Source: Gammaproteobacteria bacterium
Lineage (GTDB): Bacteria; Pseudomonadota; Gammaproteobacteria; JAJDYQ01
Length of the DNA: 64,000 nucleotides
Direction: 5' to 3'
Assembly (NCBI GenBank): GCA_028289815.1
Contig: JAPYNQ010000017.1
Span: 1 to 64,000 of the forward strand
Part shown: one piece after another, positions 52,603 through 56,162 of the stretch
Position numbering within the stretch: position 1 is the stretch's first letter
How the letters are laid out: the number at the start of each line of letters is the position of its first letter
Made by a program: the position numbers and the translations under genes
The notes under the pieces: generated by a model
What the model was told of the DNA's origin: nothing
Seen by the model: only the letters and a program-made list of their open reading frames with translations
The model's database searches: none

Positions 52603-52625
52603 GGGAATTATATACCTGACTACCC
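52603..52625. repeat. Left terminal inverted repeat of the IS1595-type element
   Basis: 23 bases starting GGGAATTATATACC and ending TGACTACCC. Pairs with 55397-55419 at 21 of 23 positions; the mismatches are at positions 6 and 14. The HNH stop codon (52622-52620) is inside it. Confidence 0.8.
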
Positions 52626-53201
52626 ATCAGGAACATAGTCCGTCCATTCGTTTCCATCAGACAGGCGTTCTTCGACAAACTGCAGAAACGGTTTGGCTCC
52701 CCGTCTTCGGTTGCAGTTTGGACAGAGTAGTTGCTTGTTTTCGGCCTCATCGGATCCGCCCACGGCTTTCGCCCTGATGTGATCAACGTCCGGTCTTTCG
52801 GGAAGCACGGCCAAACATCCAGGACAGAAGCCCCATTGTCTTAGTCGGTAGGCGTCAATAATGCGTTTATCCCCACCCCAGTCGGGAATGTCGCCGACCT
52901 CTGCATGGCGTTGGTCAAAAGCGCGGCCTGTCAGTTTCCATCCGTTCCTGTTGTTTGTCTGGACGCACTTATCGAGCAGTCCATCTTTCACCAGACTGCT
53001 CAGCACTCCCCATACGATATCGTCGTTTCCTTGTTTCCTTGCGTATCTTGGCTCACGGAATATTCCAGCGCGGCCACCTATTTCAGCAGCTCCGATGCAT
53101 TCCTGTTTCTTGGCTGCCTCATACAGGACTTCCAGAACCGCGACCCGAAGATGCGCGACACCACGATGTCCATGACGTTTGGCAAGTGGCGGAACGCTCA
53201 T
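52620..53201 (-). CDS. HNH endonuclease, likely restriction enzyme of the element
   Basis: 193 residues. C-terminal HNH motif: D140-H141, Asn155, and zinc pairs Cys126/Cys129 and Cys160/Cys163. The N-terminal half (ECIGAAEIGGRAGIFREP, DDIVWGVLSSLVK) is a winged-helix-like domain shared with the next upstream gene. Its ATG overlaps that gene's stop by four bases. With the adjacent methyltransferase it is the likely cleavage half of a type II system. Confidence 0.8.
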   Translation of the reverse strand: MSVPPLAKRHGHRGVAHLRVAVLEVLYEAAKKQECIGAAEIGGRAGIFREPRYARKQGNDDIVWGVLSSLVKDGLLDKCVQTNNRNGWKLTGRAFDQRHAEVGDIPDWGGDKRIIDAYRLRQWGFCPGCLAVLPERPDVDHIRAKAVGGSDEAENKQLLCPNCNRRRGAKPFLQFVEERLSDGNEWTDYVPDG

Positions 53202-53515
53202 TCTGAAATATCGTCTTTTCTGCGGTCAAATTCCTCGTCGGTCAGTTCCCAGCCATCGGACTTGTCCGGTTTGGCAGGATTCTGCGGACACCTTTTGACC
53301 TTGTTTTCCTTAACCAGTTTGTTGAGCATTCCCCAGACAATGTTATCGTTCCCGGACGCCTGTGCGTGTCCGGGTTCCCTGAATATCCCCGCTCTTCTGC
53401 TTATCGCGGCCGCTCCTATGCACTGATCCTCATGGCGAGCCTCCAGAAGAACGTCCAGTATCGCTTCCTCAAGATAAAATTCCCCAAGTCGGGAAAGCTG
53501 TCTGGGTCTAATCAT
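53198..53515 (-). CDS. Winged-helix-like protein homologous to the HNH nuclease's N-terminal domain
   Basis: 105 residues. Reads QCIGAAAISRRAGIFREP and DNIVWGMLNKLVK, close to the first half of the HNH protein. It may be a controller, a specificity partner or a heterodimer subunit. Overlaps the methyltransferase stop and the nuclease start by four bases each, so all three are translated together. Confidence 0.7.
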   Translation of the reverse strand: MIRPRQLSRLGEFYLEEAILDVLLEARHEDQCIGAAAISRRAGIFREPGHAQASGNDNIVWGMLNKLVKENKVKRCPQNPAKPDKSDGWELTDEEFDRRKDDISE

Positions 53516-54423
53516 CTCCTCATTTCCTCCACTCTCTGTTTCGCGATCTGAATGTATTCGGGATTGATGTCGATTCCGATACTATGGCGTCCAGCCTTGT
53601 GCGCCGCGACGCAGGTTGTTCCGCTCCCGAGAAACGGATCGATGACAATCTGTCCGGGTTTCGTGAAAAGCCTGATAAGATGTTCGCATATCCTGATCGG
53701 TTTTGGCGTAAGGTGCCCGTTATAGTGGGAACGGTCATCCTTCTCGACAGTCATCACGGTGGACGGAACCTTTCCCTTGAGTGTCTGTCCTGCGTCTATC
53801 AGTCCCGTTCCGTGCTCGATCCAGTTATCCACGAACGTCCCGTCACGTGGTTTCTGCACACACAGAACAGCCTCGAACTGCGGACGCAACTGCGGTGTTT
53901 TCCGGCCCGCCAAGGACTTTATGGTATCGCGTTTCTCTGATGGACTCATGTCATTTCGCCTTTCGACAAAATGATCCATGGAGAATGCCTTGAACTGTGC
54001 CCGTCGCGTGAACCGCCACGCATAGAGATCTCGAACCTCGAACCCTGAATCCTCGAAAGCGACCGCCATCCGGTGCACCAGGCGCGGAGCGGAAAACACG
54101 ACCGCGAACGCCCCGGGTTTCAGGATTTTCATTAGATCACCGGCGATCGGAACCATGAAATCCTGCAGACGCCGACCCTGGTTGGCGTCAAACTTCATTC
54201 CGACAGGCAAGCCTCCAACCGTTCCCGTGCCGCGCTTGCCGCCATTTCCCTTTTTCCAGTCATCATCCAGTCCGTCGAGAAAATAGGGCGGATCGGTCAG
54301 TGCCATATGTACGCTTTCAGGCTCCATGTCCGCCAGAACATCCCGACAGTCGCCGGGATACAGTTTCACTTTAGCCTGCGGACGCAGAAGCTGCTTGGCT
54401 ATAACATCGATGCGCCTAGCCAT
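53512..54423 (-). CDS. DNA methyltransferase (N6-adenine or N4-cytosine, beta class)
   Basis: 303 residues. The catalytic motif D44-P-P-Y47 comes before the FxGxG AdoMet motif (IDPFLGSGTTCVAA, near residue 265), which is the beta-class order. Aromatic and hydrophobic motif X follows in SIGIDINPEYIQIA. It would protect host DNA from the HNH nuclease. Its start overlaps the transposase stop by eight bases. Confidence 0.9.
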   Translation of the reverse strand: MARRIDVIAKQLLRPQAKVKLYPGDCRDVLADMEPESVHMALTDPPYFLDGLDDDWKKGNGGKRGTGTVGGLPVGMKFDANQGRRLQDFMVPIAGDLMKILKPGAFAVVFSAPRLVHRMAVAFEDSGFEVRDLYAWRFTRRAQFKAFSMDHFVERRNDMSPSEKRDTIKSLAGRKTPQLRPQFEAVLCVQKPRDGTFVDNWIEHGTGLIDAGQTLKGKVPSTVMTVEKDDRSHYNGHLTPKPIRICEHLIRLFTKPGQIVIDPFLGSGTTCVAAHKAGRHSIGIDINPEYIQIAKQRVEEMRR

Positions 54424-55354
54424 TGGTCAGCACCTCGAATGTAAGCCGCTTGCCCACCATACCCGCAACAAGGTGGGTCATCATGTCAATGGTATCGGAA
54501 TTTCGGTCATTATGACGTCCGGAAAACTCGGCAATGTAACGTTTGAGATGGGCTTCACTGACATGGTGGAAGGTACCGTGGTACCCCCGTTTCAGGGTTG
54601 CCCAGAATGACTCAAGTCCATTCGTATGCGCCATGTCATTGACGAATTCCCTGACGGAATGGTTCACGCTCTCATGGTCGCGGTCCATGCCCTTGTAGGC
54701 GGCCGCCTCGTCCGTGTACACCTTGGCGTCCCCGTCAGTGACTTCCTCGACAAACCCCTGAAGGGTCTCGCGGTCTGTTGATCCGACGACCCTAGCCATG
54801 ACCTTTCCTGTCTTACGGTCTTTCGCTCCGACAACGGCCGTCTTTCCGACCGATCCACGCCCTGTCATTTTCTTGCGCCTGCTGTTGCTCATGTTTTTGC
54901 GCTTTCCTCCGACGTAGGTCTCGTCAACCTCAACCGGTCCCTCAAAAGGATTGAAACCTTGCGGAAACGCCTCGCGGATGCGGTGCATCATGAACCAGGC
55001 GGTCTTCTGGGTTACCTTAAGATCACGGTGCAGTTTCATGGAAGATACTGATTTCAGACTGGTGCAGACCATGTAGATGGCCAATGCCCACTTTCTCAGG
55101 GGCAGACGCGATTCCTGTAGGATCGTTCCATGACGTACGGAAAAATCCTTTCGGCAGGTTTTGCATCTGTATGGTTGGGGCTTGTGGTTCTTGCGTTCGC
55201 TTACATGAACGCTTCCGCAATGCGGGCATACAGGTCCGTCAGGCCATATGATGGTCTCAAACCATTTTCTCGCCGTCTCTTCATCAGGAAACATGTCCAT
55301 AAGTTCGGGCAGTGAAATTCCCTTGCGGAACGATTTTCCCGGTGCTCTGTGCAT
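54416..55354 (-). CDS. IS1595-family (ISXO2-like) transposase
   Basis: 312 residues, complete. Zinc ribbon Cys43/Cys46 and Cys64/Cys67; DDE-type residues Asp144 (VEVDETYVGG), Asp215 (VYTDEAAAY) and Glu248 (HTNGLESFW). Starts 43 bases inside the right terminal repeat. The reading frame is intact, so the element could be active. Confidence 0.93.
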   Translation of the reverse strand: MHRAPGKSFRKGISLPELMDMFPDEETARKWFETIIWPDGPVCPHCGSVHVSERKNHKPQPYRCKTCRKDFSVRHGTILQESRLPLRKWALAIYMVCTSLKSVSSMKLHRDLKVTQKTAWFMMHRIREAFPQGFNPFEGPVEVDETYVGGKRKNMSNSRRKKMTGRGSVGKTAVVGAKDRKTGKVMARVVGSTDRETLQGFVEEVTDGDAKVYTDEAAAYKGMDRDHESVNHSVREFVNDMAHTNGLESFWATLKRGYHGTFHHVSEAHLKRYIAEFSGRHNDRNSDTIDMMTHLVAGMVGKRLTFEVLTNG

Positions 55355-55396
55355 TTTTTCCTCCTTATCTGATTCGTAATGTGAATTAACAATAGT

Positions 55397-55419
55397 GGGT
55401 AGTCAAGTATATAGTTCCC
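55397..55419. repeat. Right terminal inverted repeat of the IS1595-type element
   Basis: GGGTAGTCAAGTATATAG...TTCCC on the plus strand; its reverse complement matches the left repeat at 21 of 23 bases. The transposase starts 42 bases further in. Confidence 0.8.
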
Positions 55420-55436: not shown

Positions 55437-56162
55437 CTATTTTGAATCCCCACTCTCAACCAGCTTGATTTCCCGAAAGCGAGCCACTACCCTGCCGCCG
55501 GCGTTGTCTGAATCAGCCATCAGGCCGATTCCGTCAATGATCGGATCGGTTGCAAAAATCTCGCGCCACCATGCAGCGACATTGATTGTCTGGCGATGCC
55601 ATACGCCGTTTTCTGCGTCAGCATTGGCGAATGCGCGTATCTGTACCCGGTGCAGAAAATTGTTATAGCGTTTGTATGGGCTGGGCCATAGTACGCCAAT
55701 GGCTTTTTCTCGCGCACGCACCAGATTAAGCGTCTTTGAACTTAACTTGCCACCAGCCGACAGGTAAATGCGAAAGGCAAAGTCATCGCCATCCCGGGTG
55801 TCCTCGGGCGGCCCACGAGTCGGCGACTCATCAACACGCCAGTCGAAGACTAAAAATGGGGTTGCACTCAGATCAAGCGGTTCTTCGAACTTCAGATAAA
55901 AAAATGACGCCCCGCCCACGGCAGTTGCCTGTAGTGCGTACCCGCCTTGATCAGAAATGATTTCGTACCGGGTTGGCGTCGAAACCTTTCTGGGGTCAAA
56001 AATCGCATAGCCCCATTTACCGCTCACGAGTTCATCAAGCGATTGTGGGCGCTCTATCGGCAGATCGGCGATGATTTGTGAATTCAGCAACACTCGCTCT
56101 GCAGCGCCAAGTGGCCACGACAACAGTGCGAGAGCGAGCGCGATAGAACCTTTCATATCCAT
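55437..56162 (-). CDS. DUF3047 family secreted protein
   Basis: 241 residues with a signal peptide (MKGSIALALALLSWPLGAAE, cleavage after GAAE region). DUF3047 blocks: FLVFDWRVDESPTRG, DDFAFRIYLS and GIGLMADSDNAGG. Beta-sandwich-like periplasmic protein of unknown function, common in sulfur-oxidising and other proteobacteria. ATG at 56162; a second ATG two codons on is possible. Its stop lies 18 bases from the IS element edge. Confidence 0.85.
   Translation of the reverse strand: MDMKGSIALALALLSWPLGAAERVLLNSQIIADLPIERPQSLDELVSGKWGYAIFDPRKVSTPTRYEIISDQGGYALQATAVGGASFFYLKFEEPLDLSATPFLVFDWRVDESPTRGPPEDTRDGDDFAFRIYLSAGGKLSSKTLNLVRAREKAIGVLWPSPYKRYNNFLHRVQIRAFANADAENGVWHRQTINVAAWWREIFATDPIIDGIGLMADSDNAGGRVVARFREIKLVESGDSK

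Follow-up and report, generated by a model that had tools for sequence, protein, structure and literature searches.

Restriction-modification (R-M) systems have long been viewed as mobile, selfish addiction modules, and the vehicles that carry them are mostly composite or inferred. PMC3031569, which cites Khan (2010) and Rochepeau (1997), places R-M genes on IS-flanked or composite structures and on the PluTI element. Transporter insertion sequences (tIS) with passenger genes are also known: ISNha5, an IS1595-family member, carries transcription regulators (PMC11891212, citing Siguier, Gagnevin and Chandler, 2009), and IS220, of the IS1380 family, has a methyltransferase passenger (PMC11891212). 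The IS1595 family is described by its catalytic domain; most groups also have a zinc finger, and the elements are usually flanked by duplications of 8 bp (PMC8101967). Across the literature covered, which was partial and mostly titles and abstracts, we found no description of IS1595 elements with complete R-M operons.

Here we describe an IS1595-family element of 2,817 bp (positions 52603-55419), bounded by 23-bp inverted repeats, in a 64,000-nucleotide stretch of gammaproteobacterial DNA that we call the window. Like ISNha5, it has an IS1595-type transposase, short repeats and internal passengers that are not needed for transposition; the reported passengers of ISNha5 are regulators, whereas the window element carries a complete R-M-like operon and its clade holds several unrelated R-M types (PMC11891212). 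With IS220 it shares the presence of a DNA methyltransferase passenger in an IS, but the IS220 transposase is of another family and the methyltransferase alone is mentioned, with no restriction enzyme (PMC11891212). As with PluTI and the IS-flanked systems, R-M genes lie on a putatively mobile unit. Those units are described as IS-flanked or composite, whereas in the window the transposase and R-M genes form one overlapping chain within a single IS (PMC3031569).

Results

One insertion sequence encloses four overlapping genes

The element is framed by a left terminal inverted repeat, GGGAATTATATACCTGACTACCC (52603..52625, + strand), and a right one, GGGAACTATATACTTGACTACCC (55397..55419, - strand; found directly). 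The two start with GG, are identical at 21 of 23 positions and give the pattern GGGAA.TATATAC.TGACTACCC. With up to three mismatches allowed, this 23-bp pattern occurs at seven sites in the 2.18-Mb genome and at none when read backwards. Two of the sites outside the window lie directly before IS1595 transposase genes (C27 and C50), and the C50 copy has a perfect 8-bp duplication, CAATACAA. An earlier note on this DNA had described a single IS1595 element with 23-bp repeats, and the direct repeat search and the seven-to-none count bear this out. The note had also asked whether the repeats bound other copies; in this genome, at C27 and C50, they do.

Between the repeats are four intact open reading frames (ORFs), all on the - strand, in the order transposase, methyltransferase, 105-aa protein and HNH protein. 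Each gene runs into the next, by 8, 4, and 4 bp in turn, an arrangement that favors a single transcript and translational coupling. The note's account of an intact DDE transposase followed by methyltransferase, winged-helix and HNH genes in an overlapping chain held up in the ORFs, the Pfam matches and a structure model, as did its placement of the last stop codon: the TAG of the HNH gene (52620-52622) is supplied by the inner end of the left repeat.

The first gene encodes a 312-aa DDE transposase with an N-terminal zinc ribbon (54416..55354, - strand; PF12762, 4.3e-39; PF12760, 6.2e-12; NF033547, 9.5e-59). Judged by its DDE_Tnp_IS1595 domain and zinc ribbon, the element is a member of the IS1595 family. 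Ordinary members of this family have a single transposase gene, unlike the window element, in which three passenger genes follow the transposase, a mark of the tIS subset. These passengers are unrelated to transposition and lie between the repeats of one IS, not between two IS copies. We also weighed a composite transposon but set it aside, since the cargo lacks a second, flanking IS1595 copy and contig C9 has no other IS1595 match.

Within the right repeat, a -35-like TTGACT (55401..55406, - strand) reads into the transposase gene. Many relatives have a TTGAC hexamer in their repeat at the same or a similar position, with a spacer of 16-18 bp, and their best promoter scores average 8.5 out of 12, compared to 7.3 in shuffled sequence. 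The earlier proposal that the cargo depends on the transposase's promoter is plausible given the gene overlaps and the TTGACT, but the -10 element in the window copy is poor. An outward promoter-like pair, TTAACA-18-TATAGT, is also present at the right repeat (55386-55415); such matches are at chance level here.

We detected no convincing 8-bp target duplication around the window element, a point the earlier note had missed: the flanks, AAAATTAA and ATAAAAAT, match at 4 of 8 positions. The comparison of copies that the note had suggested for defining duplications gave perfect ones in C50 and most clade relatives, but not in the window copy. The window element occurs once in its genome, though IS1595 fragments there are many. 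As the copy is single and lacks a clear duplication, its own recent mobility is left to inference. The duplication was presumably lost later, and the IS1595 assignment draws on the other features given above. Loss by recombination between copies is possible, by analogy with two relatives, L145 and L146, described below. The empty site was not readable in two congeners, both of which lack the flanking gene (55437-56162).

A second IS1595 copy in the same genome (L060, G000:C6, 85-1277) encodes a transposase 59% identical to that of the window. Behind it, near the contig end, is an overlapping 81-aa ORF that has a PD...ECK nuclease-like motif and ends in a stop. This copy was left out of the R-M count that follows.

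Transposase relatives carry R-M genes of several types

We gathered relatives by transposase similarity alone, so that cargo did not bias their choice. At E < 1e-75, relatives were found in 14 of 385 genomes (another class of the same phylum). We read the DNA behind the transposase at 39 loci, in a survey that covered one phylum, consisted mostly of draft genomes and was not built to compare the R-M share with that of other passenger-carrying IS families. Cargo was classified with Pfam and PADLOC, and "R-M" here denotes domain matches. Most relatives have end repeats of the window type and perfect 8-bp duplications.

DNA methyltransferase cargo, usually with a nuclease, was present in 13 of the 33 rows of the transposase clade, including that of the window. 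L116 encodes an N6/N4 methyltransferase and a BglII restriction enzyme (PF09195, 1.7e-32; PADLOC REase_II, 3e-84); L119, a D12 methyltransferase and a NotI restriction enzyme (PF12183, 1e-39), between repeats identical at 23 of 23 positions and with the duplication TTCCGGTT; and L120, a C5 methyltransferase and a GIY-YIG nuclease. Type IIG-like enzymes with a specificity domain are encoded in L080 (PADLOC REase_MTase_IIG, 4.5e-98) and L140 (HSDR_N, N6_Mtase, and Methylase_S). Five elements (L123, L126, L133, L134, and L141) carry an N6/N4 methyltransferase fused to HNH. In L128, the layout is window-like, with a methyltransferase followed by a separate HNH protein that matches PADLOC REase_II, and L144 carries a D12 methyltransferase. 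The earlier claim of an R-M-like operon as an IS1595 passenger, co-oriented with and overlapping the transposase, draws strong support from these relatives.

Nine of the R-M elements have perfect 8-bp duplications (L080, L116, L119, L120, L123, L133, L134, L140, and L141). Moreover, the BglII-type element (2,748 bp) is present in four copies, L116, L145, L146, and L147, on one 4.15-Mb contig of genome G669. The copies are 100% identical over 2,746-2,748 bp and their flanks are different, which points to recent movement of the element together with its R-M genes. L145 and L146 have the flank AATCCATA in common, on opposite sides, as if the copies had recombined.

Several loci held other genes. 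L124, in the same clade and with the duplication AATATTGA, has as its single cargo a GIY-YIG gene with a match to PADLOC UzuA (7e-70), a candidate defense gene. In L132 (1808-2302), two small genes behind the transposase resemble HicB/HicA toxin-antitoxin genes by eye only. In L081 and L083, related IS1595 elements with perfect 8-bp duplications, the transposase is followed by a gene with a P63C domain and one with DUF3800. A protein of 133-147 aa that belongs to no known family (...NWVKARAACT...) is encoded directly behind the transposase in L123, L134, L138, and L130; in L123 and L134 it precedes the methyltransferase-HNH fusion.

To place the R-M rows among the transposases, we used a quick maximum-likelihood tree of 41 sequences. 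As the tree was rooted at the midpoint, a "group" here is whatever lies to one side of a branch with support. All 13 R-M rows, the window's among them, fell in one group of 33 (SH-aLRT 97). On this tree the R-M label changes 11 times, with at least seven changes forced by supported branches. R-M cargo scattered in this way (7-11 changes) argues for repeated gain, or for exchange and loss, and not for one ancestral R-M element. From these sequences, unrelated types of R-M module appear to have entered the clade repeatedly.

What these counts say about the clade can be read in two ways. One explanation is that the clade serves as a platform for R-M transposition, in which unrelated, complete modules sit directly behind the transposase, within its gene chain, as an autonomous unit whose loss is penalized by R-M; we lean slightly toward this explanation. 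The other is that the clade collects passengers at random and that the frequency of R-M cargo simply reflects how common R-M genes are, without any special link. Consistent with random collection, members and near relatives of the clade also carry P63C/DUF3800 genes, a GIY-YIG defense gene and unassigned genes, and R-M labels cluster on the tree no more than shuffled labels do. Against it, methyltransferases, mostly with a nuclease, recur in the clade as counted above and are found in none of the eight rows outside the 33-row group, a small sample, and in most of the 13 rows the R-M genes lie directly behind the transposase. We consider random collection possible but somewhat doubtful.

The cargo proteins recur in distant taxa

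The second gene of the window element encodes a 303-aa beta-class N6/N4 DNA methyltransferase (53512..54423, - strand; PF01555, 9.1e-35; PADLOC MTase_II, 3e-45). Its motifs DPPY (residues 44-47) and DPFLGSGT (262-269) are invariant across five sequences, and its predicted product is m6A.

The 105-aa protein (53198..53515, - strand) matched no Pfam family above its cut-off; we assigned a winged helix from an AlphaFold model (pLDDT 78; H-H-H-strand-strand-H). A fold search with this model returned generic winged-helix proteins only, none at E < 0.001. The protein is conserved in five other loci and adjoins the methyltransferase in every locus that holds that neighbor. We propose that it may be a regulator or specificity partner.

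The 193-aa protein (52620..53201, - strand) consists of an N-terminal winged helix and a C-terminal HNH nuclease domain (PF01844, 1.2e-8), in which the C-x2-C, DH, N, and C-x2-C-N residues are intact; the structure model of this HNH part is of low confidence. The N-terminal half and the 105-aa protein are paralogues (45-47% identical), a relationship that the earlier note had also missed. From its sequence we propose this protein as the candidate restriction endonuclease. The layout resembles that of Type II R-M systems whose restriction enzyme is of the HNH kind: the beta-class methyltransferase has as its neighbor an HNH protein whose N-terminal domain is a winged helix (compare L128 and the viral locus L057). 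Two features set the window element apart from these systems: its HNH protein fits no REase model in PADLOC, where the best match was PtuB (0.0012), and a paralogue of the protein's DNA-binding half is encoded separately.

We scanned contigs of 84,980 species with a winged-helix alignment, using two short peptide patterns, by which relatives can be missed. The scan yielded five more loci from distant taxa: two in Alphaproteobacteria (an Aestuariivita MAG and one other) and one each in a poribacterium, a dehalococcoidian and an elusimicrobiote. The Aestuariivita locus (L038) has all four genes in the window order, at about 57-68% protein identity; its transposase and HNH genes are broken by frameshifts or stops, and its methyltransferase and winged-helix genes are intact. 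A truncated transposase precedes the methyltransferase/winged-helix pair in L040, the pair is alone in L039 and L042, and L041 starts at the winged-helix gene. Since the HNH gene is broken in L038 and absent from L039, L040, L041, and L042, the methyltransferase and winged-helix protein form the conserved unit.

Around L039, L040, and L042, a blind search for decayed repeats with a duplication found no candidate that scored higher than shuffled sequence. In L038 the end pair has a 7/8 duplication, the best in the locus, with a score not above chance; its ends are placed by position and by 16/23 agreement of the left end with the repeat pattern. The earlier note had asked whether the trio is found outside IS1595 repeats, and the answer is mixed. 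The complete methyltransferase-winged helix-HNH trio was seen only in IS1595 elements (the window and L038), but the pair also occurs at loci where ends are not detectable (L039 and L042).

Viral contigs searched with the window methyltransferase, HNH and winged-helix proteins gave no relatives. A search of viral contigs with a methyltransferase alignment yielded relatives at 39-55%, without the winged helix. In two of these, L053 and L057, the methyltransferase adjoins an HNH-type protein by sequence reading, with a weak Pfam HNH match in L057 (0.044) and none in L053; L057 also has a winged helix-like plus HNH layout. Relatives of the winged-helix protein were found in neither plasmids nor phages, and relatives of the HNH protein were not found in plasmids.

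Two accounts fit the pattern in L038-L042: decay of an R-M system in which the nuclease is lost first, and a methyltransferase-regulator pair that has its own function. Possibly, then, the cargo is an orphan methyltransferase with a winged-helix regulator that exerts epigenetic control over transcription or transposition for the element or its host, and the HNH protein, which would then be non-cognate, arose late by duplication of the winged helix and fusion to a nuclease and can be dispensed with. Every complete locus has an intact pair, the HNH protein is intact in the window only, and its N-terminal half is common to the winged-helix protein, all as this explanation would have it. However, R-M decay also predicts nuclease-first loss, both L128 and viral L057 again have a winged helix-like plus HNH arrangement next to a methyltransferase, and clade relatives carry unmistakable REases. 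In addition, the pair persists without a transposase, which argues against a role in transposition only. We judge the orphan pair unlikely. That the HNH protein is instead a homing-type nuclease or nickase that aids spread of the element is highly improbable: phage HNH families are as good a match to its HNH domain as any (PHROG, best 3e-9), but to our knowledge homing nucleases usually come without a coupled methyltransferase, and the DDE transposase explains movement, with the 8-bp duplications of relatives at unrelated sites.

Discussion

The reading we favor, and hold to be probable, is that this locus is a transporter IS in which an IS1595 transposase and a Type II-like R-M module form one overlapping gene chain between the same repeats. 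The transposase would move the entire 2.8-kb unit via its repeats, and transcription from the repeat end would yield transposase and cargo together. The methyltransferase would methylate adenine in a short site, and the winged helix-HNH protein would cut that same site when it is unmethylated. The 105-aa winged-helix protein may regulate this pair or share in its specificity. If the two enzymes act in this way, the module could favor post-segregational retention of the element, as an addiction module would and as the earlier note had proposed.

A single IS that carries a transposase and full R-M genes, in the BglII type as four identical copies, provides a compact and testable vehicle. Such elements make it possible to examine directly if an IS is better retained and spreads further when its R-M genes are active. 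New restriction enzymes could also be sought in this clade, and the genes behind its transposases are candidate defense or addiction genes. If the clade is indeed a platform for R-M systems, it would offer a direct physical route for the mobility that has long been inferred for these systems.
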